From contig DATHVN010000062.1 in assembly GCA_035461305.1 (NCBI GenBank), positions 1 through 38,441 on the forward strand: a DNA stretch of 38,441 bases. Direction: 5' to 3'. A program made the position numbers and the translations under genes. The notes under the pieces were generated by a model. That model saw only the letters and a list, made by a program, of their open reading frames with translations. It did not search any database and was not told where the DNA came from. This document shows, in pieces, positions 4,976-25,965 of this stretch. The stretch is from Euzebyales bacterium. Lineage in GTDB: Bacteria; Actinomycetota; Nitriliruptoria; Euzebyales; JAHELV01. Each line of letters opens with the position of its first letter. Positions within the stretch are counted from its first letter, which is position 1.

Positions 4976-5300
4976 CGTCAGCCGGGAACGTACCGTCCTG
5001 GCCTGGGATGCGCGGGAAGGAACAGCAGTCGCCCGGAAGCAAACGCGCCATCCCGCCCTATCGCGACTTCGGCTTCTCGACCACAGTCGAGCTCGCCACC
5101 CGCTCGGTACCGATCGCAACGGGCGGGACGTCTCTCGCGGCGCTCATCGACGACAGCGTGCCGATCGTGGGTCTCGACGGGTCGCCTCAGCGTGCGGCGT
5201 TGGGGTTCGCGACACGGGTTCTGTGAGTCTCGCGACCAGCGGCAGCCGGATGGTGCACCAGTGAGCGCAGACCATGCCCGTCCCCGCCATACTGCGTGAC
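4976..5300. other. gene-poor stretch before phzF-like gene
   Basis: No gene was recognised on either strand. The minus strand may hold further decayed sequence of the WD40 relic. A plus-strand open stretch around 5090-5226 has no family resemblance that I can name. Confidence 0.35.
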
Positions 5301-6131
5301 ATGCAGCGCAGGTTCCGCCAGGTCGACGTGTTCTCGTCCGAGGCCTGCCGCGGCAACCCGGTTGCGGTCGTCGTGGACGGTGACGGGCTGACCACCGAGT
5401 CGATGCAACGGTTCGCGGCGTGGACGAACCTGTCGGAGACGACGTTCCTGCTGCCAGCGACAGAGCCCGGCGCGGACTACCGGGTGCGCATCTTCACGCC
5501 GGTCGCCGAGCTGCCGTTCGCCGGTCACCCGACGCTCGGATCGTGCCACGCCTGGCTGTCGACCGGTCACACGCCGGCCGACGAGGGCACCGTCGCGCAG
5601 CAGTGCGCTGCGGGGATCGTGCCGATCCGGCGCGGCGGCGACGGCCTGGCGTTCGCGGCTCCGCCACTGCTGCGGTCCGGACCGGTCGATCCCGTTCTGC
5701 TGGAGCGGATCGCCGGCGCGCTGGGGATCGAGCGCAGCGACGTCGTCGATGCCGAGTGGGTGGACAACGGACCTGGCTGGGTCGCCGTGCTGCTGGGCTC
5801 CGCGGAGGCGGTGCTGGAGCTGCGCCCAGGGTTCATCGACGCCGACGTCGGTGTCGTCGGGCCGAACCCACCGGAGGCCGACGCGGCGTTCGAGGTGCGG
5901 GCCTTCTTCCCGGTCAACGGTGTGATGGTCGAGGATCCCGTGACCGGTAGCCTCAACGCGGGACTGGCCCAGTGGCTGGTCGGCACGGGGCGGGCCGCGA
6001 CACCGTACGTTGCGCGCCAGGGCACGGCGCTCCGACGCGCCGGCCGGGTGCACGTGACGGGCGATCCCGCCAACGGGTTCTGGGTGGGCGGCACCACGAC
6101 CACAATCGTGTCGGGCACCGTGGACCTGTAG
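5301..6131 (+). CDS. PhzF-family isomerase
   Basis: A 276-residue protein of the PhzF/YddE diaminopimelate-epimerase fold. Motifs include FRQVDVFSSEACRGNPVAVV at the N-terminus, NLSETTFLLP with the catalytic glutamate, FTPVAELPFAGHPTLGS, and VEDPVTGSLNAGLAQWL in the second half. With the start at ATG 5301 the glutamate is residue 46 and the length matches well-studied PhzF enzymes (E45, about 278 residues), so I prefer this start to ATG 5274. No other phenazine genes are nearby. It is more likely one of the many stand-alone PhzF-like isomerases of unknown substrate than a phenazine enzyme. It stands alone, upstream of the sulfotransferase operon and in the same direction. Confidence 0.88.
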   Translation: MQRRFRQVDVFSSEACRGNPVAVVVDGDGLTTESMQRFAAWTNLSETTFLLPATEPGADYRVRIFTPVAELPFAGHPTLGSCHAWLSTGHTPADEGTVAQQCAAGIVPIRRGGDGLAFAAPPLLRSGPVDPVLLERIAGALGIERSDVVDAEWVDNGPGWVAVLLGSAEAVLELRPGFIDADVGVVGPNPPEADAAFEVRAFFPVNGVMVEDPVTGSLNAGLAQWLVGTGRAATPYVARQGTALRRAGRVHVTGDPANGFWVGGTTTTIVSGTVDL

Positions 6132-6226
6132 GATCTTCGCCCCGTTGCCGCCGGCGTCGGTGTGCGGACGGTGTCGAGACGCTGACCGAACGACAGACAA
6201 CCGCTGTACGCTGCGATTACTGAACG

Positions 6227-6258
6227 CCCCCGTACCGCGGGAACGGGGGTCCCGTTCC
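6227..6258 (+). promoter_or_regulatory. two mutually exclusive hairpins in the sulfotransferase leader
   Basis: CCCCCGT (6227-6233) pairs perfectly with ACGGGGG (6243-6249) around a 9-nt loop. GGAACGGG (6240-6247) pairs perfectly with CCCGTTCC (6251-6258) around a 3-nt loop. The two share bases 6243-6247, so only one can form at a time. The second ends directly against the AGGAG ribosome-binding site (6259-6263) of the gene starting at 6274. The first could also act as a terminator-like stem after the phzF-like gene, although no T tract follows. Confidence 0.45.
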
Positions 6259-6273
6259 AGGAGCATCCACGCC

Positions 6274-7161
6274 ATGACCCCGATCGGCCGGAAGACCGTC
6301 GTCTTCCACGTCGGCGCTCACAAGACCGGTACCTCGTTGCTGCAGAAGTACATGCGCGACAACGTCGCCCTGCTACGTCGCAACCGCATCTACTACATCA
6401 GCCGCGGTGCCATGAACGACTTCGTCGGCTGGGGCAACAAACTGCTGACCGACCCGGATCCGCTGGCGCGCAAGATCCGCACGACGCTGCTGGTCCCGTG
6501 GTTCACAACGGTCATCGCATCACACGAGAACACCCTCGGACGCCCGCTTCGCAGACGCGGTGCCCATCTGTACCCCAGGGCGCCGGAGATCATCGACGCG
6601 CTTGGCGACGTGCTCGCCCCGTACGATGCAAGGATCGTGTTCTCGATCCGGCCGCAGGACCAGTTCATCGAGTCCTACTACCTGCAGTCGATCCATGAGG
6701 GACGCCACGAGCGCTTCGACGAGTGGTATGCCAAGGTCGACCTCGATGCGCTGTCGTGGGGACCTGTGGTCGACAAGCTGCACGAGGTGTTCGGCGACGA
6801 GCACGTCCACGTCATCGACTTCCGTACCATCACGCGCGGGCAGGAGGCGTACATCGGTGACTTCTTCACACGCATCGACCCGCGGTACAGGTTCGACATC
6901 GAGTACAGCGCACTGCGCAACCCGAGCATCTCGGACAAGGGCCTGCAGATGGCGCTCGCCGCCAACCTTCACCTGAAGTCAGGCGACGAGCGCAAGCTGA
7001 TGCGCAAGTTCCTGCAAAAGCACTTCTCCAACCAGCGCTACCCGCGTCCCGCGCTGTTGTCGGACGACCAGAAGCGGGCCCTTCACGACCGTTATGCGGC
7101 CGAGTACGAGGCGCTCGTGGACGGGCGCGAACCTGCCACCGGTGCGACGAGGCGGGCGTGA
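6274..7161 (+). CDS. sulfotransferase-like protein (PAPS-binding P-loop)
   Basis: A 295-residue cytosolic protein. ATG 6274 follows AGGAG by 10 nt. The N-terminus carries VVFHVGAHKTGTSLLQKYMR, the 5'-phosphosulfate-binding loop of sulfotransferases, with Lys17 as the PAPS-contacting lysine. RIVFSIRPQDQFIESYYLQS is the 3'-phosphate-binding region, with Arg and Ser in place. The family transfers sulfate from PAPS to sugars or other acceptors. It is the first gene of a four-gene set in which every junction is a 4-nt overlap, and it is clearly paralogous to the N-terminal half of the next protein (shared GRH..FD and RG.....AMNPHL-like stretches). The acceptor is probably a cell-surface glycan, inferred from the Stealth neighbour. 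Confidence 0.8.
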   Translation: MTPIGRKTVVFHVGAHKTGTSLLQKYMRDNVALLRRNRIYYISRGAMNDFVGWGNKLLTDPDPLARKIRTTLLVPWFTTVIASHENTLGRPLRRRGAHLYPRAPEIIDALGDVLAPYDARIVFSIRPQDQFIESYYLQSIHEGRHERFDEWYAKVDLDALSWGPVVDKLHEVFGDEHVHVIDFRTITRGQEAYIGDFFTRIDPRYRFDIEYSALRNPSISDKGLQMALAANLHLKSGDERKLMRKFLQKHFSNQRYPRPALLSDDQKRALHDRYAAEYEALVDGREPATGATRRA

Positions 7162-9161
7162 TCATGCAGGCACCCGACCTCGTCCTCCACATCGGCATGC
7201 AGCAGAGCGGCGCGACCATGCTGCAACGTGCACTGTCGCGCATGCGGCCCCAATTGCGTACGTACGGCGTGGCCTTCATCGGGCACCGCCGCATCGCAGA
7301 GTTCGAGCACCTCGCCGGCTGGCGCTGCCGCGAAGACGCCGCCCCCGCGCAGGCAGCGGCCTTCGAACGCGAACTGGCCGACGCTGTCGCCCACGAGCAG
7401 AAGCGCATCGCCGACGCCGGAGGGATGGCACGCGGCCCCGTGCTGATCGCCAGCGACCACCTTGTCGGCGCCGCCAACATCAACGCCGCGGACGAGGACA
7501 CCTTCCGACCTCACGCCGTGCCGGCGATTGCCCACGTGGTCGCCGCGCTCGGTGCTGAGCGTGTACGGCTCGTGCTTCACACGCACCGCCAGGATCGCCT
7601 GATGGAGTTCTGCTACCTGCGAGAGATCCAGAAGGGCCGACACCACACCTTCGACGATCAGTTCCCACGGCGCTTCGAGCCGCTTCTCGACTACAACGAC
7701 CTGATCGCGCGCCTCCGGGCGCTGCCCGAGGTCATCGACATCCGCGTCCGGCCATTCGAGCTGGTCGCTGCGGGTCCGCATGCGTTCGTCGACGACTTCC
7801 TCGGCGCGCTCGGGCTGTCCGGCACCCTCGACCTGGAGGGCGTCGCGGACGGTCTCGAAGCGCACCATGTGTACTCCCGACGCGGTCTGCGGATCGCACT
7901 GGGCATGAACCCCCATCTGGAGACCGCCCGCGACCGCAAGCTCGTACGGCAGTTCCTGCTGGAGAACTTCCCTGCCGGCGACGACCGCCAGAGCCGCTTC
8001 ATGCCCAAGCGGGAGCGCCGCAGGATCCTTGCCGCGTACCGCGAGGCCAACCGCGATCTGTTCCGCGGTCACATGCCCGATCTGCCGGAAGACAGCTACG
8101 ACGACAACCCCGCGACCGAACAGCTGGCCGACGTGCTGACCGGTTCGGACGACCACGCCCGCGACACCATCGCACGGCCCGATCGAGCGACCGGTGTGGT
8201 GCCGAAACGCGCCGACCGCCGCACCGCACAGGCCGCGGCGCGCGGCTCCACCATCGCTGACCGCGTGGCGATGCGAACCGGAACGGTCACGGGCCGGTTG
8301 AGCGAGACGCTGACGCCGCTGGTGGCCCGCGCCGCCGAGCGCAACCGTCTGCTCTACGACCTGAAGGTCCGGGTGCTGGCACGCCGCTGCGACGCGTTCG
8401 TGGTGTCGTTCCCCAAATGCGGTCGAACCTGGCTGCGGATGATGCTCGGTGCCGCCCTCAGCGAGCACTACGGGGTCACGGTCCGCAACCTGCTGCGGTT
8501 CACCGACGCAGACATCGATCATCCCGGCATGCCGCGCGTGCTTGCGACCCACGACGACTCACCGCAGAGCAAGGCACCCCACCGGGTCATGCGCAGCAAA
8601 CGCGCCTACGCCGGCCGCAAGGTCGTCCTGCTGGTCCGAGACCCCCGCGACGCGGTCGTGTCGCTGTACTTCCACGTCACCCGACGCCGTCAGGTGCCGT
8701 ACGACGGTGACCTCATGGACTTCGTCCGTGACCGCACCGGCAGCCTGGCGTCGTTGCTGGCGTTCTACGACGCGTGGGCGCCACACCTCGCCGACGACAA
8801 CGTGCTGCTGGTCCGCTACGAGGACATGCGCACCGACCCACACCGTGAACTGCGGCGCCTCCTCGAGTTCCTCAACGTGGACGGTGTCGACGACACCGTG
8901 GTGCAGCGCGCCGTCGACGGGGCGTCGTTCGACCGGCTGCAGCGAGTGGAGCGCGACGGCTCGGCTCCCACGCGCGCGTTGCGCACCGACTCGACCGACG
9001 ATCCCGAGTCCTACAAGGTGCGCCGCGGGAAGGTCGGCGGACACCGCGACTACCTGGCCCCATCCGACATTGCGATGATGGACGCGGCGATCGGGCGCAG
9101 CAGGGGGGCGCGCTCCCTCGGCTACGTCACGGATAGCGACAGCGGGCCAGACATCACATGA
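7158..9161 (+). CDS. two-domain sulfotransferase fusion
   Basis: A 667-residue protein starting at GTG 7158 in a GTGA overlap with the previous gene. Residues 1-315 are a paralog of the upstream sulfotransferase, but the P-loop reads HIGMQQSGAT, so the PAPS-contacting lysine is Gln and this half may not bind PAPS normally. A basic linker of about 90 residues follows. Residues ~395-655 are a canonical sulfotransferase domain: VSFPKCGRTWLRMMLGAAL with Lys420 (5'-PSB), VLLVRDPRDAVVSLYFHVTR with Arg494 and Ser502 (3'-PB), VLLVRYEDMRTDP, and a C-terminal KVRRGKVGGHRDYL. No signal peptide or membrane segment was seen. A catalytic C-half with a pseudo-sulfotransferase N-half is my reading. An ATGA overlap leads to the Stealth gene. 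Confidence 0.82.
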   Translation: MIMQAPDLVLHIGMQQSGATMLQRALSRMRPQLRTYGVAFIGHRRIAEFEHLAGWRCREDAAPAQAAAFERELADAVAHEQKRIADAGGMARGPVLIASDHLVGAANINAADEDTFRPHAVPAIAHVVAALGAERVRLVLHTHRQDRLMEFCYLREIQKGRHHTFDDQFPRRFEPLLDYNDLIARLRALPEVIDIRVRPFELVAAGPHAFVDDFLGALGLSGTLDLEGVADGLEAHHVYSRRGLRIALGMNPHLETARDRKLVRQFLLENFPAGDDRQSRFMPKRERRRILAAYREANRDLFRGHMPDLPEDSYDDNPATEQLADVLTGSDDHARDTIARPDRATGVVPKRADRRTAQAAARGSTIADRVAMRTGTVTGRLSETLTPLVARAAERNRLLYDLKVRVLARRCDAFVVSFPKCGRTWLRMMLGAALSEHYGVTVRNLLRFTDADIDHPGMPRVLATHDDSPQSKAPHRVMRSKRAYAGRKVVLLVRDPRDAVVSLYFHVTRRRQVPYDGDLMDFVRDRTGSLASLLAFYDAWAPHLADDNVLLVRYEDMRTDPHRELRRLLEFLNVDGVDDTVVQRAVDGASFDRLQRVERDGSAPTRALRTDSTDDPESYKVRRGKVGGHRDYLAPSDIAMMDAAIGRSRGARSLGYVTDSDSGPDIT

Positions 9162-10858
9162 GCCCGATCCGTGCGACGGCCATCGCTGTGCTCGAACGCT
9201 TGGGTCTCGTCGAAGCGTTGCTCGTGGCGCGGGACCACGCGGCGAGCATACTTGATCCACTGCATCGCGCGGGGGCCCTGAGGACCTACGGCGGACTACT
9301 GGGCCGCAATGCCGACCTCCTGCTGGCCCACCACGATGGCGTCTGGGAGATCGCCCGCCGGGACGACCGCCTGATCGTCCGGGACGTCATGGCAGACAAC
9401 CTCCACCTGGTGGTGTCGGCGCTTGAGCGCCAAGCCATCCCGTGCCTGATGGTCCCGATCCGAAGCCCGAACCGCCACCGCGTGATCGTGCCGTCCGTCC
9501 ACCGTCGTGCGGCCCTCGACGCGTTGGCACAAACAGGTGACCCGGCGGTACACCTCTACATCGACGACGCCGACCTCGCACCGCGACATCGGCGCGTCGC
9601 AGTCGGCCGAGGTCTACCGCCGAGTGCGCGCGCACGTGCGCTGCGGCGGCCGGTGTGGCGCGTCTACGTCAACCGGGCTGACGTGCAGGGCCGCACAGTG
9701 CTGGGCCACCTGCACGGGTGTGAGGTGGAGTTCTGGTCGGAGTCACAAGACGTCGGGGCGCGTGGCGTGTCTCCGCTCGTCGCAGAACGTTGGAACAAGA
9801 GTGTCGCCGATGTGCCGCCGGACGTCGCACCCACCGGCGCCACCGAGATCGGCGACCGCCCCGCACCCATCCTGCGCGAGTTCGGCACCGCACCGCACTT
9901 CGATGACGTCACGTTCCCGATCGACGTGGTCTACACCTGGGTCGACGGGTCCGATCCCGCATGGTTGGAGCGCAAGAACACGGTGCTGCGCACCCTCAAC
10001 GTCGAGACGGTCCACCCCGACGCACACGACGCGTCGCGCTACCGCAGTCGGGACGAGTTGAAGTACTCCCTGCGCTCCGTCGCGATGTTCGCCGACTTCG
10101 TGCGTCACGTCTACATCGTGACCGACGACCAGGTGCCGACATGGCTGAACACCGAGAACCCGCGAGTGACGGTGGTGTCCCACAAGCAGATCTTCGGTCC
10201 GACCGGCACGCTGCCGACGTTCAACTCCCACGCCATCGAGGCGTGCCTGCACCACATCGACGGATTGTCCGAGCACTACCTGTACCTCAACGACGACTTC
10301 ATGTTCGGCCGCCGGGTGCGGCCCGACACGTTCTTCCTGAGCAACGGCTTGGCCAAGTTCTTCCCGTCAAGCGCTCTGATCGGGCTCGACGAGGCCGACG
10401 GCGTCGCCCGCTCGGTCGACGTGGCGGCACGCAACAGCCGCGCGCTCGTGCAGCGGCGCTTCGACCGCGTCACGCATCAGAAGATGAAGCATGCGCCGTA
10501 CCCCCAGCGGCGCAGCGTGCTCTACGCTGCCGAGAAGGAGTTCGCGGACGAGTTCGCCCGGACCATGTCGGCGCAGATCCGCAGCCGGACCGACCTCCCC
10601 GTGGCGTCGTCGTTCTCGCACTACTACGGCTACATGACCGGTAGCGCCGTGCCCGGCGACGTCGCCGCACGCTACGTCGAGCTCAGCGCACCTGACTTCG
10701 AGCGCCGGCTGCGCAGCCTGCTCGACAGTCGCAACGTGGACACGATCTGCATCAACGACGCGGCGCACCCGCACACGCCCGACATCGCGCGACGCGAACG
10801 CCGATTGCACGAGTTCGTGGACACCTATTGGCCGGTGAGAAGCGAGTTCGAGCTGTGA
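9158..10858 (+). CDS. Stealth-family (capsular-polysaccharide) phosphotransferase
   Basis: A 566-residue protein with all four Stealth conserved regions after a ~250-residue N-terminal extension. CR1 is IDVVYTWVDGSDPAW near residue 255. CR2 is SRDELKYSLRSV through LPTFNSHAIEACLHHIDGLS and EHYLYLNDDFMFGR. CR3 is KHAPYPQRRSVLY through SSFSHYYGYMTGSAVPGD. CR4 is the short C-terminal region with TICINDA. Known relatives include GlcNAc-1-phosphotransferase and bacterial capsule polymerases that move a hexose-1-phosphate from a nucleotide sugar to make phosphodiester-linked glycans. It is coupled by ATGA to the sulfotransferase fusion and by GTGA to the 2H protein. The donor and acceptor cannot be read from sequence. 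Confidence 0.9.
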   Translation: MSPIRATAIAVLERLGLVEALLVARDHAASILDPLHRAGALRTYGGLLGRNADLLLAHHDGVWEIARRDDRLIVRDVMADNLHLVVSALERQAIPCLMVPIRSPNRHRVIVPSVHRRAALDALAQTGDPAVHLYIDDADLAPRHRRVAVGRGLPPSARARALRRPVWRVYVNRADVQGRTVLGHLHGCEVEFWSESQDVGARGVSPLVAERWNKSVADVPPDVAPTGATEIGDRPAPILREFGTAPHFDDVTFPIDVVYTWVDGSDPAWLERKNTVLRTLNVETVHPDAHDASRYRSRDELKYSLRSVAMFADFVRHVYIVTDDQVPTWLNTENPRVTVVSHKQIFGPTGTLPTFNSHAIEACLHHIDGLSEHYLYLNDDFMFGRRVRPDTFFLSNGLAKFFPSSALIGLDEADGVARSVDVAARNSRALVQRRFDRVTHQKMKHAPYPQRRSVLYAAEKEFADEFARTMSAQIRSRTDLPVASSFSHYYGYMTGSAVPGDVAARYVELSAPDFERRLRSLLDSRNVDTICINDAAHPHTPDIARRERRLHEFVDTYWPVRSEFEL

Positions 10859-11664
10859 GGCGACGGTCCGTCCGCGGCGCGGCCCTGGACATCACCAACG
10901 CCAAGGTGGCCAGTCTGGCGCCCACATGGCGGCCCTATCGCGGCGTCAGCGTGCTGTTCGACAATCCCGGAACCCGGCTGCCCCCCGGCGTGGCGCGGCT
11001 CGAGGACATCGCCGTCGTCGAGCCGGAGCGGCAGCGCCTGTACGACGACCTGGCGTGCGCGGTCGCCGACGGCGACGAGAACTGGGGCGACCGGCACGGC
11101 CTGTGCCCGCTGCCGCGCCACAGCTACCACGTCACGGTCTGCGACGGACCGAACCAGCACAGCGGCATCCCCAGCGTTTCGGCGCTGCTCGACGGGCTCC
11201 CCGCCAGCCTCGAGCGGCTGACCGACGAGCTGGTCGTCATGGCGGACGCGCGCGTGCTTGCAGTCGCTGCGGACAATGGGGTCACGCTGGCCGTCTCCGA
11301 GATCGTCGTGCAGGGGCACGTGCTCGCCGCCCGGCTCGTGCCGGTCGACCCCGTCAGCGACATCGCGCTCGACCGCATCGCGGCCGCCCGAGCCGAACTC
11401 GTCGACGGCCTGTGGACGGTCTTTCGGCTTCGAACCCAACACTGGCACCCGCACGTCAGCCTCGGATACTTTCCCAACCGCCACGCGGCCGCCGCGGCAG
11501 GCGCTGCACTGCCCACCGCCTACCAGGATCTCCCTGCAGTCCTGGACACGTCGATCACGTTCGCGTCGGCGGCCGTCTACGGCTTCACCAACATGGCGTC
11601 GTTCTTCCGCGTCGATCCCGATGCCACAGCCCTACGCTCCCATGGGCTCGGTACCGGCAGGTAG
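10855..11664 (+). CDS. 2H phosphoesterase-superfamily protein
   Basis: A 269-residue protein. GTG 10855 is chosen because it makes a GTGA overlap with the Stealth stop, as at the other two junctions. Two H-x-[ST]-hydrophobic signatures are visible: RHSYHVTVCDG (His92, Thr94) and HPHVSLGYF (His200, Ser202), about 108 residues apart, as in the bilobed 2H fold (cyclic phosphodiesterases, 2',5'-RNA ligase-like and LigT-like enzymes). A Stealth enzyme makes phosphodiesters or cyclisable phosphoglycans, so a role in opening or trimming a phosphodiester of the polymer is attractive but is inference. RNA is the other obvious substrate class. The last 88 bp overlap the convergent second Stealth gene. 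Confidence 0.72.
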   Translation: MRRRSVRGAALDITNAKVASLAPTWRPYRGVSVLFDNPGTRLPPGVARLEDIAVVEPERQRLYDDLACAVADGDENWGDRHGLCPLPRHSYHVTVCDGPNQHSGIPSVSALLDGLPASLERLTDELVVMADARVLAVAADNGVTLAVSEIVVQGHVLAARLVPVDPVSDIALDRIAAARAELVDGLWTVFRLRTQHWHPHVSLGYFPNRHAAAAAGAALPTAYQDLPAVLDTSITFASAAVYGFTNMASFFRVDPDATALRSHGLGTGR

Positions 11665-13304
11665 GACTGCAGGAACCGTGCTGCGGCTGCGCGCATCTCG
11701 TCGGCCCGATCCGGCGGCGCATCGGTCTCGTTGATGCAGATGGCGTCGACGTCCCTGCGCTCGAGCAACCTGCCCATCTGGAGGCTCGCCCAGCGGAACG
11801 CGATGTTGACGTACTCGGCCGCAATGTCGGCCGGTACCGCGCGGCCGGTGGCGAACGCGTAGTAGTGGGCCAGGCACGATGCGATGTTGAGGTCGGTCGG
11901 CTGACGGAAGCGGCTCGCGGCCGTGCGTGCGAACTCGTCGGGAAAACGCTGCTCCAGTTCGACCAGCACGCTGCGGAGCTGGGGGTACGGGACGTGCAGG
12001 ATCTTGCGCCCGACATACACGTCACAGTGGTTGCGCAGCAGATCGCGAACGTTCTTCGAGGCGCTGTCGACCGGCAAGTCATCCGTCGAGGGCGGACCAC
12101 CCGGGATCGGCGCGAGCTCGTCGGGGAACAGCTTCGCCAACCCGTTGGGGGTGAAGAACGTACCAGCCGTCACCTCACGTCCCAGCACGAAGTCGTCGTT
12201 GAGGTACAGGTAGTGCTCGGACAATCCGTCGATGTGGTGCAGGCGCGACTCGACCGCGTGGGAGTTGAACGTCGGCAGATGTGCGGAGTCGAGCAGCTCA
12301 TCGTGGTCGACCATCCGGATGTCGGAATGGTCGATGTCGAGCCACTCGGGAACCTGACCGGCCGTCACGACGAAGATGCGCCGTACGAACGGGGCGAACA
12401 ACGCAAGCGAGCGCAGCGAGTAGCGCAGCTCGTCGTTGTCACGGTACCGCGACGGGTTGATGGCCTGCGGATGCAGCGGACGTCGCTCGTACGCCAGGGC
12501 TTGCTCGAGCTGCCGACGCCATCGCGGATCCCGATCGTCAACCCAGGTGTAGACCACGTCGATCGGCATGCGAGCTGCGGACAGCGAGCGATGGTCGGAG
12601 AAGTCACTCAGCGTCGGGTACTCCCGACCGCCCACCGTGACCCGCGCCGGTGCGGTCGCCGAGTTCACCAGCCGGCCCGGACGGGCGCCGGCAGGGGGAC
12701 GCGTGTTGTCACCCGCGCGGTGCCACAGCTCGATCAGACAGCCGTGCGACGCTCCGACGACGTAGCCGGGACCGAGGCGGTGGTTGCGGTACACCAGCAT
12801 GCGCTCGGACCGGGCGGCGGCGCCCTCGGCGGTCACGAGGCGCCACGCCGGCACCTCACGGGTTCCGTCGGTGGCCTGCACATACAGGTCACCACCACGA
12901 CCGGCCGCCGCCAGCGCGGCCCACACGCGCGCGCGCTCGGCTACATCGACGCCGATGACGACGGGACCGGCCGAATGGGCGTCGCGCACGAAGAATGGAA
13001 CGCCCGCAGCCCGCAGTAGGTGTGCCACGATGGCCAGGTTGTCCTCCGCCACCTCGCGGACCGCGACGAACCGGAAGTTGACCGCAGACCGGCAGGCGTC
13101 GTCGGACTCGCCCCGGACGCGAGCCGCGACCGGCGACACGGAGTCCCGCCCGGAGCGCCACCGCGGCACGCTACGAGCGTAGCCGAAGCACTGGCGCGTC
13201 CGGCGCCACGCCTGTTGCGCGCGCTGTCGGACGTACTCCACGACGTACGAGGGAACGCGCCGCTGCACGACCGTTTGACGGAGCACGCGCGCGACCGGAC
13301 TCAT
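11577..13304 (-). CDS. second Stealth-family phosphotransferase
   Basis: A 575-residue paralog of the upstream Stealth protein with the same layout. An N-terminal extension (AVREVAEDNLAIVAHLLRAA, then a GCLIELWHR segment) precedes CR1 (IDVVYTWVDDRDPRW), CR2 (DNDELRYSLRSL, LPTFNSHAVESRLHHIDGLS, EHYLYLNDDFVLGR), CR3 (LHVPYPQLRSVL to SCLAHYYAFATGRAVP) and CR4 (DAICINETD). The C-terminus carries about 20 extra residues after VPSPWERRA, in the region overlapping the 2H gene. The start at ATG 13304 has only a weak AGGTCG upstream, so a later start is possible. The convergent arrangement means it is not part of the upstream operon even though it is functionally linked to it. Confidence 0.88.
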   Translation of the reverse strand: MSPVARVLRQTVVQRRVPSYVVEYVRQRAQQAWRRTRQCFGYARSVPRWRSGRDSVSPVAARVRGESDDACRSAVNFRFVAVREVAEDNLAIVAHLLRAAGVPFFVRDAHSAGPVVIGVDVAERARVWAALAAAGRGGDLYVQATDGTREVPAWRLVTAEGAAARSERMLVYRNHRLGPGYVVGASHGCLIELWHRAGDNTRPPAGARPGRLVNSATAPARVTVGGREYPTLSDFSDHRSLSAARMPIDVVYTWVDDRDPRWRRQLEQALAYERRPLHPQAINPSRYRDNDELRYSLRSLALFAPFVRRIFVVTAGQVPEWLDIDHSDIRMVDHDELLDSAHLPTFNSHAVESRLHHIDGLSEHYLYLNDDFVLGREVTAGTFFTPNGLAKLFPDELAPIPGGPPSTDDLPVDSASKNVRDLLRNHCDVYVGRKILHVPYPQLRSVLVELEQRFPDEFARTAASRFRQPTDLNIASCLAHYYAFATGRAVPADIAAEYVNIAFRWASLQMGRLLERRDVDAICINETDAPPDRADEMRAAAARFLQSYLPVPSPWERRAVASGSTRKNDAMLVKP

Positions 13305-13859
13305 CGACCTGAGGTCTCGGCCCAGGAGGGGTTCACGAATGACACCTGACTCCGGCTGGTGCGGCTTGAGTGGTCTCGGTCAACGGCAGCACGTGCTCGG
13401 CGAAAGGCCGCGGCAACACCTCAGCCTAACACTGCGCACCGAGCGCACGACGCAGCTGGGCAGGACCATGGGTCAGGGGCTTGCGTTGACAGATTCACGC
13501 GGTTTGATGGGGGGGCCTGCGCCGCCGCCCAGCGGAGACAGGTCGGAGCCGAAGGGCGGCAGGCTCCGCGGGACTCGAGGATGCGTGCAGATCCAGGATC
13601 ATCCGTCCTCCATACGGACACGGACCGATGACACAGTGCGGGCATCGACGCGCCTTCCCGGCCCTCTATCCGCAGACCAAGGATCACATCCGAGAGACCT
13701 TCGAGGAGAACGAGTTCGAAGGCCAGCCATCGGGCGTCCACATCTTTCGGCGTGACCTTTCCTGATCCTGTCCGGTGCAGGTCGTCGTCTGGCCGTTGTG
13801 GAGGGTGCACCGCGTGCGGGACAATGCGCAGCCAGGCCCGCGTCAGGAGGAGCGTGCGC
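13305..13859. other. 555-bp gap, possible short gene remnant at 13628-13765
   Basis: Most of this gap holds nothing I can assign. A plus-strand reading from ATG 13628 to TGA 13765 gives 45 residues, including FPALYPQTKDHIRETFEENE and PSGVHIFRRD. It has a natural-looking composition and C-terminus but no ribosome-binding site. It may be the tail of a lost gene. AGGAGG at 13845-13850 serves the next gene. Confidence 0.3.
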
Positions 13860-14234
13860 ATGAGCGACCAGCGTGGCGATCCGCCGTTGTTCGATCCGGT
13901 CGCCATGCTGCGCTGGGGCTGGCGTCTGGGAGAGGAGCTTCGCCAGCTGCCCGACGCGATCGCTCAGTGGCGAGAGGGTGTCACGCTCTTCCTCGCGGTC
14001 GCCCGGCGGCTGGAGTCGGCGACGACCAGCGCCGAGGACGTGTTGGCCCAGGTCGAGGCGTCGGGGTTGCTCGACCAGCTGGAGCGTCTTCAGGCCCTCA
14101 CCCTCGAGATCGGTCACCACGCGACGACGGGCGGTACCGCCGTCGGCGAGCAGGTCCTCGATGAGACCCGGCGCAACATCGAGGCGTTCGCACGGCTGTT
14201 CACCGCTCCACCACCACCACCCGACCGGGACTGA
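13860..14234 (+). CDS. small helical protein of unknown function
   Basis: 124 residues from ATG 13860, 9 nt after AGGAGG. The sequence is almost entirely predicted helix: a tryptophan-rich start (MLRWGWRLGEELRQLPDAIA), long amphipathic helices through DVLAQVEASGLLDQLERL and EQVLDETRRNIEAFARLF, and a proline-rich tail (PPPPP). There are no membrane segments and no cysteines. The heptad-like pattern suggests a helical bundle or a phasin-like or scaffold protein, but I do not recognise a family. It is monocistronic, with a hairpin downstream at 14266-14301. Confidence 0.7.
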   Translation: MSDQRGDPPLFDPVAMLRWGWRLGEELRQLPDAIAQWREGVTLFLAVARRLESATTSAEDVLAQVEASGLLDQLERLQALTLEIGHHATTGGTAVGEQVLDETRRNIEAFARLFTAPPPPPDRD

Positions 14235-21110: not shown

Positions 21111-22091
21111 ATGACGCCACGGACCGCCGTCCTCGATGGCCTCGGCGTGGCCGTGCCCGACCGCGTCGTGACCAACGACGACTTGGCGGCCCGGCTCGAC
21201 ACGACCGACGAGTGGATCCGCACGCGGACGGGCATCGCCGAGCGGCGCATCGCCGACCCTGCCGTGGCGACCAGCGACCTGGCCTACGAGGCGGCCCAAG
21301 CCACGCTCAAGGACGCCGACGATGTGCCGCCGGCCGCAGTGATCGTGGCCACCACCACGCCCGACCACCCGATGCCGGGCGTGGCGCCGCTCGTCGCAGC
21401 TCGCCTCGGATGGGACTCAGTGCCCGCCTTCGACGTCCAGGCCGCATGCTCCGGCTTCGTCTACGGGCTCGCGTCAGCGGCCGGCCTGATCGCCGCCGGC
21501 GTCACCGACCGGGTGCTGCTGATCGGCGCGGACCTCATGTCGCGGATCACCAACCAGGACGACCGCGCGACGGCCGTGCTCTTCGGTGACGGCGCCGGGG
21601 CGGTCATGCTACGGGCCGGCTCACCCGATGAGCCGGGCGCAGTGGGACCGTTCGACCTCGGCAGCGACGGCGCACACGTCGACCGCCTGATCGTGGCCGC
21701 GGGAGGGACGCGCGTGCCGAGCCATCCGACCGAGCCCGCGCGCTACCTGTCGATGGACGGGCGGGACGTGTACCGGCATGCTGTGCGGCGGATGACCGAG
21801 TCGTGCCGCGCCCTACTGGACCGGGCGGGCCTCGGCGTCGACGACGTCGACCGCTTCGTGGCACACCAGGCGAACCTGCGGATCCTCATGGCGGTGGCCG
21901 ATCGGCTCGGCGTCGCCGAGGAGCGGCGCGTGAGTAACGTCGACCTCTATGGGAATACCTCAGCCGCATCGATCCCGCTCGCGTTGGCCGACGCGGCGTT
22001 GCGTCCGGGCGAGCGGATCCTGCTCACGGCGTTCGGCTCCGGGTTCACATGGGGGTCGACGCTGATGACCTGGCCGGATCTCGGCCCGTGA
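21111..22091 (+). CDS. fabH: 3-oxoacyl-ACP synthase III (KAS III)
   Basis: 326 residues, ATG 21111 after a strong GGGGGAGGG. The catalytic triad is visible: Cys113 in VQAACSGFVYGL, His252 in FVAHQANLRIL and Asn282 in LYGNTSAASIP, matching the 112/244/274 spacing of the E. coli enzyme. Other marks are DEWIRTRTGIAERRI and FGDGAGAVML. It condenses malonyl-ACP with a short acyl-CoA to start type II fatty-acid synthesis. It is the second gene of the operon, followed by ACP after 44 bp. Confidence 0.95.
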   Translation: MTPRTAVLDGLGVAVPDRVVTNDDLAARLDTTDEWIRTRTGIAERRIADPAVATSDLAYEAAQATLKDADDVPPAAVIVATTTPDHPMPGVAPLVAARLGWDSVPAFDVQAACSGFVYGLASAAGLIAAGVTDRVLLIGADLMSRITNQDDRATAVLFGDGAGAVMLRAGSPDEPGAVGPFDLGSDGAHVDRLIVAAGGTRVPSHPTEPARYLSMDGRDVYRHAVRRMTESCRALLDRAGLGVDDVDRFVAHQANLRILMAVADRLGVAEERRVSNVDLYGNTSAASIPLALADAALRPGERILLTAFGSGFTWGSTLMTWPDLGP

Positions 22092-22135
22092 CCTCGACGA
22101 CGTGATCAACCGACGGTGAAGGGAACATCGGACAC

Positions 22136-22390
22136 ATGAGCAGCGCTGTCTACGACAAGGTCAAAGAACTCCTCGTCGAGAAGTTCGGCGTCTCCGAGGA
22201 CGAGGTCTCACCCGAAGCCACGTTCTCCGACCTCGACCTCGACTCGCTCGACCTCGTCGAGTTCGCCCTCGCCGCCGAGGAGGAGCTGGGCGTGCGCATC
22301 AGCGACGAGGAGGCGGAGCAGCTCGACACGCTCGACGACACCGTCAAGCTCCTCGAAGAGAAGGGAGCCACCGTCGAGGGGGCGGGGTGA
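22136..22390 (+). CDS. acpP: acyl carrier protein
   Basis: 84 residues, strongly acidic and helical, with the phosphopantetheine serine in DLDLDSLDLVEFALAAEEEL (Ser37 at the family position). GAAGGGA lies 11 nt upstream. It carries the growing acyl chain between FabH, FabF and FabI, all encoded around it. Its stop TGA at 22388-22390 lies inside an inverted repeat (GTGACC 22387-22392 with GGTCAC 22411-22416) spanning the junction with fabF. Confidence 0.95.
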   Translation: MSSAVYDKVKELLVEKFGVSEDEVSPEATFSDLDLDSLDLVEFALAAEEELGVRISDEEAEQLDTLDDTVKLLEEKGATVEGAG

Positions 22391-22421
22391 CCTCAAGGAG
22401 CGTAGCGGTGGGTCACATGAC

Positions 22422-23645
22422 ATGACGACTGAGATCGCGATCACCGGACTCGGCCTGGTCACACCGGCGGGGATCGGCGTCGACGCCAGCTGGGAGGGTG
22501 TCCTGTCCGGCCGGTCCGCCGGTGCGACGGACCCGAATCTCGCTGGCATCCCGATCGACATCAGCTGCCGCGTGGCCGACTTCGACGGCAACGCGCTGCT
22601 GGGGCGCAAGGTCGCGCGCCGGCTCGACCGTTTCGTGCAGCTCGGGCTCGTCGCGGCGCGCGAGGCGATCGAGGACTCCGGACTGGATCCCGAGAGCTGG
22701 GACGGCGCCCGGGTCGGCGCCGTCATCGGGTGCGGCATGGGTGGCGCAGCCACCTGGGAGGCGCAGCACACCGTGCTCATGGAGAAGGGACCTGGGCGGG
22801 TGTCGCCGCTGCTGATCCCGATGCTCATCCCGAACATGGTTGCCGGCCACATCGCGATCGAGTTCAACGCCAATGGGCCCAACCTGGTGACCGCAACCGC
22901 GTGCACGTCCGGCACGACGGCGCTGGGCGTCGCGCGTGACCTGCTGCGTGGCGGTGCCTGCGACGTGGTCATCGCCGGCGGGAGTGAGGCCGGGCTCACG
23001 CCGCTGTCGATCGCCGCGTTTGGTCAGATGCACGCCCTGTCAGAGCGGGTCGACGACCCTGCGGCCGCGTCGCGCCCGTTCGACGCCGACCGTGACGGCT
23101 TCGTCGCGGCCGAGGCTGCCGGGGTGCTGATCCTCGAACGTGCCGATGACGCCGCGGCGCGCGGCGCAACCGTGCGGGCGCGGCTGATCGGCTACGGCGC
23201 CAGCGCCGACGCACACCACATCACCGCCCCCGACCCGGACGGCGTGGGCGTGGGCCTCGCGATCACGTCGGCGCTCGCCGACGCGGGCGTCACGCCCGCC
23301 GACGTGAGCCACATCAACGCGCACGGCACGTCGACGCCGCTCAACGACGTCGCCGAGTCGAGGGTGATCCGGCGGATCTTCGGCGGCGACGCGCCGCCGG
23401 TCACGTCGACCAAGGGCGTGACGGGCCACTCGCTGGGCGCCGCCGGCGCCATCGAGGCAGCCTTCAGCGCGCTGACGCTGCAGCACGGACGCATCCCACC
23501 GACGGCGAACCTCGACATGCAGGATCCCGAGATTGACCTGGACGTCGTCCACGGCGCGCCACGCGACAGCAACGTCGACGTGGTCATGTCGAACTCGTTC
23601 GGGTTCGGCGGCCAGAACGGCGTCGTCGTGTTGGCCGGTTCCTAG
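22422..23645 (+). CDS. fabF: 3-oxoacyl-ACP synthase II (KAS II)
   Basis: 407 residues. The Cys-His-His triad is Cys161 in ATACTSGTTALGVA, His301 in HINAHGTSTPLND and His336 in VTGHSLGAAGAIEA, nearly identical in spacing to E. coli FabF (163/303/340). A C-terminal NSFGFGGQNGVVVL completes the thiolase fold. It elongates acyl-ACP with malonyl-ACP. The start ATG 22422 lies in a repeated ATGACATGACG context; GGAG at 22397-22400 is rather far upstream, so translation may depend on the preceding ACP gene. Confidence 0.95.
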   Translation: MTTEIAITGLGLVTPAGIGVDASWEGVLSGRSAGATDPNLAGIPIDISCRVADFDGNALLGRKVARRLDRFVQLGLVAAREAIEDSGLDPESWDGARVGAVIGCGMGGAATWEAQHTVLMEKGPGRVSPLLIPMLIPNMVAGHIAIEFNANGPNLVTATACTSGTTALGVARDLLRGGACDVVIAGGSEAGLTPLSIAAFGQMHALSERVDDPAAASRPFDADRDGFVAAEAAGVLILERADDAAARGATVRARLIGYGASADAHHITAPDPDGVGVGLAITSALADAGVTPADVSHINAHGTSTPLNDVAESRVIRRIFGGDAPPVTSTKGVTGHSLGAAGAIEAAFSALTLQHGRIPPTANLDMQDPEIDLDVVHGAPRDSNVDVVMSNSFGFGGQNGVVVLAGS

Positions 23646-23711
23646 GACTGCGGCCGTGCCACCTCGCTCCGACCGGTGCCCGGTCGTGGGGACCGCTGCG
23701 GGAGGTTCCAC

Positions 23712-25151
23712 GTGACCGACGTCATCGACCCGCGCGCCCACCGTCTCGCCCGCATCCATGCACTGGTCGACCTCGACAGCTTCTCCGAGATCGGCAGCAG
23801 GGCGCGGCACCGCGTCACGGCGTTCGGCATGGATCGCAAGCGCCCGGACGGCGACGGCGTGGTGACCGGGCCGGCACGCATACACGGCAGGCCCGTCGAG
23901 GTCTTCGCCCAGGACCCGACGGCGCTCGGTGGATCGCTGGGGGAGGTGCACGCAGCCAAGATCGCCGCCGGCCTGGACCGAGCGGCTCGTGTCCGCTGTC
24001 CCGTCGTCGGCCTGCTCGACTCGGGCGGCGCGCGGATCCAGGAGGGGATCGCCGCACTCGACGGCTACGGCTCGATCTTCTACCGCAACGTGGCTCTGAG
24101 CGGTCGCGTCCCGCAGATCAGCGTCGTGCTCGGCCCGTGCGCCGGTGGGGCGGTCTACTCGCCGGCGCTGACCGACGTGGTCATCATGCAGCGCGACAAG
24201 GCCCACATGTTCGTCACCGGTCCGCGTGTCGTGCGCGCCGTCACCTTCGAGGACGTGTCGCTGGCCGACCTCGGTGGAGCGGACCTCCACGCGCAGACAT
24301 CGGGTGTCGCCCACCTGGTCGCCGACGACGCGGCCCACGCGCTGGACCTCACGCGCCGGGTGCTCGGCTACCTGCCAAGCTCGTGTCACGATCTGCCGCC
24401 GACAGAGGCGCCGGGTCGTGCCGACCCCATGCCCCGGATCCCCGACGACCACCGTGAGCCCTACGACGTGCGCCGCGTGATCGACGGGATCGTCGACCAC
24501 GGCACGTTCCTCGAGCTGCACGAACGGTTCGCCGAGAACGTCGTGGTCGGCTTCGGCAGGGTCGAGGGGAGGTCGGTTGGCGTCGTCGCCAACCAGCCGC
24601 TCGTGCTCGCCGGGTGCCTCGACATCGAGGCCAGCGAGAAGGCGGCGCGCTTCGTGCGCCTCTGCGACGCGTTCGGCGTCCCCCTGGTCACGCTGGTCGA
24701 CGTCCCGGGCTTCCTCCCGGGCACCGGACAGGAGGCCAGCGGCATCATCCGCAAGGGCGCCAAGCTCCTCTATGCCTTCGCGGAGGCGACCGTGCCCCGA
24801 GTCACGGTGATTCTGCGCAAGGCGTTCGGCGGCGCCTACATCGTGATGAACTCCAAGTCGCTGGGCGCTGACGCGGTGTTCAGCTGGCCCGGTGCCGAGA
24901 TCGCCGTCATGGGCGCCGAGGGCGCGGTCGACGTCATCCACCGCCGCGTGCTGGCCGAGGACCCCGACCGCCGTTCCGAGCTGCTGGCGCAGTACCGCGA
25001 GGAGGCGATGGACGCGACCGTCCCGGCGGAACGGCTCAGCGTGGACGAGGTGATCGACCCGGCTGGGACCCGCGACCGCGTCGCGGCCACCCTACGATCA
25101 CTGGAGCGCTCGGTCCGTCCCGGCTACCGTCACGACAACTTGCCCCAGTGA
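23712..25151 (+). CDS. accD: acyl-CoA carboxylase carboxyltransferase subunit (PCCB/AccD type)
   Basis: 479 residues from GTG 23712, 6 nt after GGAGG. Both crotonase-like carboxyltransferase halves are present. The N-half has VFAQDPTALGGSLGEVHAAK, LLDSGGARIQEG and LGPCAGGAVYSPAL. The C-half has VDVPGFLPGTGQEASGIIRK, AFGGAYIVMNSKSLGAD and AEIAVMGAEGAVDV. It moves carboxyl from biotin to acetyl-CoA (or another acyl-CoA) to make malonyl-CoA for this operon. The biotin carboxylase/BCCP alpha subunit is not in the window. The gene symbol reflects context; propionyl-CoA specificity cannot be excluded. Confidence 0.88.
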   Translation: MTDVIDPRAHRLARIHALVDLDSFSEIGSRARHRVTAFGMDRKRPDGDGVVTGPARIHGRPVEVFAQDPTALGGSLGEVHAAKIAAGLDRAARVRCPVVGLLDSGGARIQEGIAALDGYGSIFYRNVALSGRVPQISVVLGPCAGGAVYSPALTDVVIMQRDKAHMFVTGPRVVRAVTFEDVSLADLGGADLHAQTSGVAHLVADDAAHALDLTRRVLGYLPSSCHDLPPTEAPGRADPMPRIPDDHREPYDVRRVIDGIVDHGTFLELHERFAENVVVGFGRVEGRSVGVVANQPLVLAGCLDIEASEKAARFVRLCDAFGVPLVTLVDVPGFLPGTGQEASGIIRKGAKLLYAFAEATVPRVTVILRKAFGGAYIVMNSKSLGADAVFSWPGAEIAVMGAEGAVDVIHRRVLAEDPDRRSELLAQYREEAMDATVPAERLSVDEVIDPAGTRDRVAATLRSLERSVRPGYRHDNLPQ

Positions 25152-25185
25152 GGCCGGCGGGCCGGCCCGCCTGAGAGGATCCACC

Positions 25186-25965
25186 GTGCTGCTCGACGAC
25201 AAGCGCCTGCTCATCACGGGCGTGCTCAACGACGCCTCGATCGCGTTCCACGTCGCGCGCATGGCCCAGCGGCAGGGCGCCGAGATCGTGCTGACCGGTT
25301 TCGGCCGTGGCATGCGGATCACCGAGCGGGTCGCCGGTCGCCTGCCCGAGCCTGCCGACGTGCTGGAGCTCGACGTCACCGACGAGGACCACCTCAGAAT
25401 GGTGGCCGCTGCGGTCGACGACCGCTGGGGTCGCCTGGACGGTCTGGTGCACGCCATCGGGTTTGCGCCCGACACAGCGATCGGCGGCAACTTCCTCGAC
25501 ACCCCGTGGGACGACGTCGCCACCGCGATGCACGTCTCCACCTACTCGCTGGTCGCGCTGGGGCGTGCGTTCGCCCCACTGCTCGCGGCCTCGGAGCGCG
25601 GCGCCATCGTCGGGCTCGACTTCGACGCGGCGGTCGCGTGGCCGGCCTACGACTGGATGGGGGTGGCCAAGGCGGGGCTCGAGGCGTGCTGCCGGTACCT
25701 GGCACGCGACCTCGGCCCGCAGAGGACCCGGGTGAACCTGGTGGCCGCCGGCCCGCTGCGGACCATCGCCGCGCGCAGCATCGCCGGGTTCTCCACGTAT
25801 GAGCAGGTGTGGGAGAAGCGCGCACCACTCGGATGGGATCCCGGGGACCCCGAGCCGGTCGCCCGGGTGGTGTGCGCGCTGCTCAGCGACTGGACGCCGG
25901 TCGTCACCGGAGAGATCGTCCACGCCGACGGTGGCGCGCACGCGATGGGCGCCGACGTCCGCTGA
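25186..25965 (+). CDS. fabI: enoyl-ACP reductase (InhA/FabI type)
   Basis: 259 residues from GTG 25186 after GAGAGGA. N-terminal LLDDKRLLITGVLNDASIAF is the NAD-binding motif typical of the FabI/InhA subgroup. The catalytic pair is Tyr155 and Lys162 in PAYDWMGVAKAGLEA (Y-x6-K, as InhA Tyr158/Lys165). NLVAAGPLRTIAA and a C-terminal GEIVHADGGAHA are also present. It reduces trans-2-enoyl-ACP in the last step of the elongation cycle. It closes the fatty-acid operon; fabG, the dehydratase and fabD must be elsewhere. Confidence 0.95.
   Translation: MLLDDKRLLITGVLNDASIAFHVARMAQRQGAEIVLTGFGRGMRITERVAGRLPEPADVLELDVTDEDHLRMVAAAVDDRWGRLDGLVHAIGFAPDTAIGGNFLDTPWDDVATAMHVSTYSLVALGRAFAPLLAASERGAIVGLDFDAAVAWPAYDWMGVAKAGLEACCRYLARDLGPQRTRVNLVAAGPLRTIAARSIAGFSTYEQVWEKRAPLGWDPGDPEPVARVVCALLSDWTPVVTGEIVHADGGAHAMGADVR

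Follow-up and report, generated by a model that had tools for sequence, protein, structure and literature searches.

An island of five genes (A–E), found within a 38,441-nucleotide stretch of Euzebyales DNA (hereafter the window), is interpreted here as a module, gained by horizontal transfer, for making a sulfated glycan in which sugar-1-phosphate diesters would link the sugars. In the proposed scheme, the two Stealth enzymes C and E would use UDP-sugars as donors of sugar-1-phosphate to sugar hydroxyls, dividing the work, at a guess, between two different sugars or between an initiator and a polymerase. The sulfotransferase-like protein A, together with the C-terminal half of B, would place sulfate from PAPS on the chain or its precursors, with the N-terminal half of B probably serving as a non-catalytic binding or scaffold domain, and the 2H phosphoesterase D would hydrolyze sugar-1-phosphate diesters in the cytosol and so trim, clear or recycle what the Stealth enzymes make, or cyclic by-products. 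We regard this scheme, taken as a whole, as the best explanation, with a confidence slightly above even; that the product is a sulfated phosphoglycan appears likely, and the action of D on the Stealth-made linkage, argued by analogy, has about an even chance of being correct.

Three congeners lack the island (positions 6131–13860 of the window) at the collinear site. Its flanking genes, a PhzF-like chromosomal gene on the left (5274–6131, + strand), which is kept in the congeners and marks the insertion site, and a small conserved gene on the right (13860–14234, + strand; the start at 13860 is backed by the congeners, that in the ORF list being 13752), lie 0.1–0.3 kb apart on one contig in all three same-genus genomes (G001–G003). 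In the window the same two genes are ~7.7 kb apart and A–E occupy the gap; A–E thus constitute a ~7.7-kb island, with an approximate right edge (about 13800–13860), and this suggests that exactly these five genes arrived as one unit. Contamination of the draft genome, put at 4% by estimate, is ruled out by the collinearity of both flanks with the three congeners. No mobile-element signature was found at the island edges, nor any tRNA or Rfam match anywhere in the window. At the right edge, some 500 bp (13310–13800) have no recognizable gene and no match in Pfam or PHROGs, and may carry an insertion scar. Elsewhere in the window, positions 1030–1848, overlapping a SpoIIE-domain gene, are 98% identical in DNA to an unrelated contig of one congener (G003:C88), most other larger matches being 73–85%, which may reflect recent transfer or a mobile stretch; positions 21111–25962 hold a fatty-acid synthesis run of FabH, FabF, carboxyltransferase and enoyl reductase-like genes.

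Genes A (6274–7161, 295 aa, ATG start), B (7158–9161, 667 aa, GTG start), C (9158–10858, 566 aa, ATG start) and D (10855–11664, 269 aa, GTG start) follow one another on the + strand with overlaps of GTGA at 7158, ATGA at 9158 and GTGA at 10855, so that every coordinate of the three successive 4-nt overlaps described in the earlier note is confirmed. Gene E (11577–13304, − strand, 575 aa), described there as a second, converging Stealth gene, does meet D tail to tail, the two 3′ ends overlapping by 88 bp (11577–11664). A phage or defense cassette is ruled out, since relatives of D or A were found in none of the viral collections, none of the five island proteins matched the defense library, and the sole PHROGs matches were those of both Stealth proteins to one family annotated as of unknown function.

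Stealth enzymes build immune-relevant capsules in bacteria and the mannose-6-phosphate tag in animals. The assignment of C and E to this family holds firmly: all four Stealth regions (CR1–CR4; PF11380, PF17101, PF17102 and PF17103) are above the Pfam cut-off and intact, and CpsY of M. tuberculosis (PDB 8j2n) aligns over the catalytic domain with both C (E 8e-72) and E (E 9e-67), as does GNPTAB. The CR3 arginine essential in CpsY (R419) has an aligned Arg in C (..SAQIR..) and in E (..ASRFR..), the equivalence being placed by alignment position and inferred from chain numbering. The genome has no Stealth genes besides C and E; such genes occur in only one other genome among 66 of the class and in 18 of the other 395 Actinomycetota genomes that were sampled. 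The CR2 regions of the two genes share a 155-nt inverted match of 83% identity (window 10211–10365 against 12124–12278), far above their ~40% overall protein identity, which may point to gene conversion or strong constraint.

Protein A is sulfotransferase-like, as first described, by its two cofactor-binding motifs: a 5′-phosphosulfate loop GAHKTGTS at residue 14 with the lysine kept, and a 3′-phosphate-binding motif IRPQDQFIESYY at residue 125 with its Arg/Ser present, both conserved in its homologues. On these sequence grounds it is a divergent PAPS-dependent sulfotransferase outside the Pfam sulfotransferase membership, its PF13469 match (E 0.085, 13.5 bits) lying below the cut-off of 27, and no solved-structure relative was found for it by sequence. 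Homologues with 42–45% identity are encoded on Rhodobacterales capsule plasmids beside or near Stealth genes, and three other A-family members that were examined also lie among surface-glycan genes. Protein B had been called a double sulfotransferase, of which the two-domain architecture stands and the double catalysis probably does not. Residues ~408–650 form a Sulfotransfer_1 domain (PF00685, E 7e-26) with SFPKCGRTW and VRDPRDAVVS intact, and this C-terminal half matches many solved sulfotransferases in the PDB. Residues 1–330, in turn, form an A-like domain whose loop is degenerate (GMQQSGAT), and because the phosphosulfate-loop lysine is replaced by Gln, the N-terminal half is expected to be inactive. 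APS kinase, the PAPS-making enzyme, is encoded in this genome and in its congeners.

Protein D contains exactly two H-x-[ST] motifs, H92-V-T94 and H200-V-S202, and both histidines, already pointed out in the earlier note, are invariant in a 13-row alignment, built by way of a three-row alignment that included two plasmid relatives, followed by addition of ten further genome relatives. The single-sequence fold prediction of D reached a pLDDT of only 33, and an AlphaFold model made with an 11-row alignment gave a mean pLDDT of 60 (core 70–88), with the motifs on strands at 93–100 and 200–205. In a Foldseek search, the matches of this modest model, with a best E of 1.6e-5 and, for the first ten, TM values by query length of 0.33–0.44, were nearly all to 2H proteins, including a Pyrococcus RNA-ligase-like protein, Usb1, ATU0111, plant cyclic phosphodiesterase and LigT, and viral models of DUF1868 proteins were among the best. 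By motifs and predicted fold class, D is accordingly a probable 2H enzyme, in keeping with the fold suspected at the outset. It lies below the Pfam 2H cut-off (PF13563, 18.2 bits against 27), its Leisingera relative (see below) being just at 27. The closest described family is DUF1868 (2H-phosphodiest, PF08975), to which the D family is related at the profile level (profile–profile probability 97.6%) with an LPxxSxHxT-type motif in common; however, D has no match to the PF08975 profile at E ≤ 0.1, and the D family branches off on its own, with support of 100%. A role for D in removing PAP for the sulfotransferases was dropped on substrate class, because the known substrates of 2H enzymes are phosphodiesters rather than monoester bisphosphates.

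The wider distribution of the D family bears on whether D belongs to the Stealth system. For eleven relatives, the genome or plasmid record of origin contains no Stealth gene; the seven Paenibacillus genomes represented by L006–L012 have no Stealth gene. The Paenibacillus D loci (L006–L012 and L098–L103), whose neighbor families were taken from Pfam for representatives and, for the remainder, from BLAST clustering, encode a sugar-binding protein in 13 of 13 cases, a LacI-type regulator in 12 of 13 and a β-helix, lyase-like protein in 8 of 13, with GDPD or EEP phosphodiesterases in some; they are candidate uptake-and-use operons for a sugar-containing phosphodiester, and point to a wider traffic in sugar phosphodiesters as nutrients. 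Thus the earlier suggestion of a 2H enzyme dedicated to the Stealth system fails for the D family as a whole, and D is better viewed as having been recruited, given the Stealth-free relatives and these uptake operons. As a separate observation, a locus of Pseudomonadota (L030:5719–10374) has ABC-transporter and solute-binding-protein genes followed immediately by a 2H gene of the DUF1868 type, in the same uptake-plus-2H pattern.

The same distribution could mean that the island does make a sulfated phosphoglycan but that D is a bystander, that is, a housekeeping or scavenging phosphoesterase of RNA, cyclic-nucleotide or uptake type that does not act on the Stealth product. Besides the many Stealth-free genomes carrying D relatives, this is favored by the nearest folds, which are those of RNA or nucleotide 2H enzymes, and by the absence of D from 18 other actinobacterial Stealth regions. 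Nevertheless, the GTGA overlap joins D to C, the D relatives accompany sugar-binding proteins rather than RNA genes, and D is found again beside Stealth and sulfotransferase genes in Leisingera, one of only two D records among 72,556 plasmid records, so that we consider a bystander role for D somewhat unlikely. In the proposed scheme, with D acting on the Stealth linkage, two counterpoints stand: the co-location of D with Stealth genes is known from two loci, and the D family occurs mostly in genomes without Stealth.

A mechanistic precedent for this scheme is provided by XanP, a 2H phosphoesterase of Xanthomonas that opens bis-(1,6)-cyclic di-galactose-phosphate on the C6 side, with galactose-1-phosphate as the end product and without cleavage of the nucleotides tested (PMC12807533). 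XanP and D, set side by side by motif spacing and described activity only, both have two H-x-[ST] motifs, separated by 105 and 108 residues, respectively, and the xanthosan system has the same regulator–uptake–hydrolase logic as the Paenibacillus relatives of D. However, the role of XanP is nutritional, and its partner synthase belongs to the GDPD family and not to Stealth. The bond class cleaved by XanP is that formed by Stealth enzymes (sugar-1-phosphate to sugar hydroxyl), which may by analogy provide a bridge from C and E to D, and hexose-1-phosphate diesters would be apter assay substrates for D than 2′,3′-cyclic nucleotides.

The resemblance of C and E to GNPTAB, a GlcNAc-1-phosphotransferase, raises another possibility for D, namely that it remodels the product by converting Stealth diesters into phosphomonoesters or cyclic phosphates, like the uncovering step that comes after GlcNAc-1-phosphotransferase in the lysosomal targeting of animals, to leave a final glycan with exposed phosphate and sulfate. 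However, the enzyme that carries out uncovering in animals is not known to be of the 2H type, and D, in which no signal peptide was recognized by eye, would be cytosolic. The C6-side cut by XanP, which leaves sugar-1-phosphate, illustrates that 2H enzymes can be side-selective (PMC12807533), as such remodeling would call for; on balance we judge it improbable. A bacterial enzyme dedicated to cutting the Stealth linkage within the same pathway was not found in the literature searched, and if D does cut this linkage, it would be a tool for analyzing or trimming phosphoglycan capsules.

The earlier note had asked whether the arrangement occurs elsewhere, and the neighborhood check found it on plasmid pBMJM1_7 of Leisingera thetidis (NZ_CP109794), a marine organism from a different phylum, where Stealth, D-relative, sulfotransferase, A-homologue, GT2 and second Stealth genes lie side by side inside a capsule-type export locus with an ABC exporter. 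The A homologue there is 42% identical and missed by Pfam, and the D relative is 27% identical to D of the window. The two loci are thus alike in uniting two Stealth genes, a 2H gene, a sulfotransferase gene and an A homologue, whereas the Leisingera locus adds an ABC exporter, a UDP-sugar dehydrogenase and GT2 genes, and its Stealth proteins are of another clade. On a Limimaricola plasmid, an A homologue (45%) adjoins a Stealth gene with exporter genes alongside, and a second Stealth gene and a CDP-glycerol glycerophosphotransferase gene lie further along. Among the 72,556 plasmid records, D was found in 2, A in 6 and Stealth in at least 48, a lower bound at the sensitivity of the query; chance alone would bring either of the two D records together with a Stealth record ~0.001 times, even before adjacency is required. 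The inference of a sulfated phosphoglycan is strengthened by the Leisingera locus, and the window locus and the two marine plasmids together predict that this glycan type occurs in phyla other than the cyanobacteria.

The island itself contrasts with these export loci in that no transporter, flippase, polymer exporter or ordinary glycosyltransferase is encoded within it, and because it has no transporter, export and anchoring of the product would depend on host machinery. Taken differently, this gene content could indicate that the product is not a polymer but a sulfated sugar phosphate of small size, serving as a nutrient, a signal or an antibiotic-like molecule, and the D relatives, as we infer from their operons, handle imported small molecules. 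Yet wherever the product of a Stealth enzyme is known, it is a surface polymer or a modified glycan (PMC10668966, PMC5974469), and A-family members are found in polysaccharide-export loci; a small compound is therefore, in our estimation, very improbable.

Within Actinomycetota, D was found in none of the 395 other genomes sampled and in none of the 65 other class members; a weak match in G022 (L002/L004) was judged spurious, having only 19 bits and an aligned frame without resemblance. The A family is present in one other genome in 396, where it belongs to a glycan locus that has NeuB and an ABC exporter but no Stealth gene. Among the 18 other actinobacterial Stealth regions, sulfotransferases are encoded in one (L077) and D in none. 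The combination of Stealth and sulfotransferase genes is thus uncommon but recurrent, and is known together with D from two places. The exceptional region (L077:7350–19485) carries genes for two sulfotransferases, one recognized by Pfam and one A-like, next to a GT2-LicD fusion gene and phosphonate genes (PEP mutase, decarboxylase and Fe-ADH), and its product is possibly a sulfated, phosphonate-bearing glycan.

In the Stealth tree, C and E of the window fall among actinobacterial Stealth proteins, and the Rhodobacterales proteins form a separate clade (support 100/98); in the D tree, the window and Leisingera proteins are not sisters, with weak support and long branches, and a single origin of the two is conceivable. 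Because the Stealth clades are separate, the two sets look separately assembled, which suggests that the same enzyme types were gathered independently in the two lineages, with A exchanged more recently. It is conceivable, at a confidence somewhat short of even, that these loci represent an undescribed class of surface glycan, sulfated and linked via sugar-1-phosphate diesters, in which a XanP-like 2H enzyme, recruited once by Actinomycetota and once more by Alphaproteobacteria, cuts or edits the Stealth link.

The proposed role of the island is worth comparing with those of described systems. The trio of Stealth, sulfotransferase and 2H genes, which the earlier note could not place in any described pathway, has no published description in the literature searched. 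The Stealth capsule polymerases and GlcNAc-1-phosphotransferase (CpsY, the meningococcal A/X-type enzymes and GNPTAB) share with C and E the CR1–CR4 regions and an alignable catalytic domain; in contrast, the island brings together two Stealth genes, three sulfotransferase-type domains and a 2H enzyme, a set that the 18 other actinobacterial Stealth regions all lack. According to one account, sulfated polysaccharides of bacteria are nearly confined to cyanobacteria (PMC13390465). Sulfotransferases within polysaccharide genes are reported for the wps-1 cluster of Actinoplanes (PMC13390465) and for cyanobacterial synechan (PMC8205485). However, wps-1, for a putative sulfated exopolysaccharide, is of the Wzx/Wzy type, the Stealth gene of Actinoplanes belongs to another cluster (gsf), and the available portion of that account does not mention a 2H enzyme (PMC13390465). 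Altogether, the locus may be viewed as a variant of Stealth-type glycan loci, to which a putative sugar-phosphodiester hydrolase, D, has been recruited.
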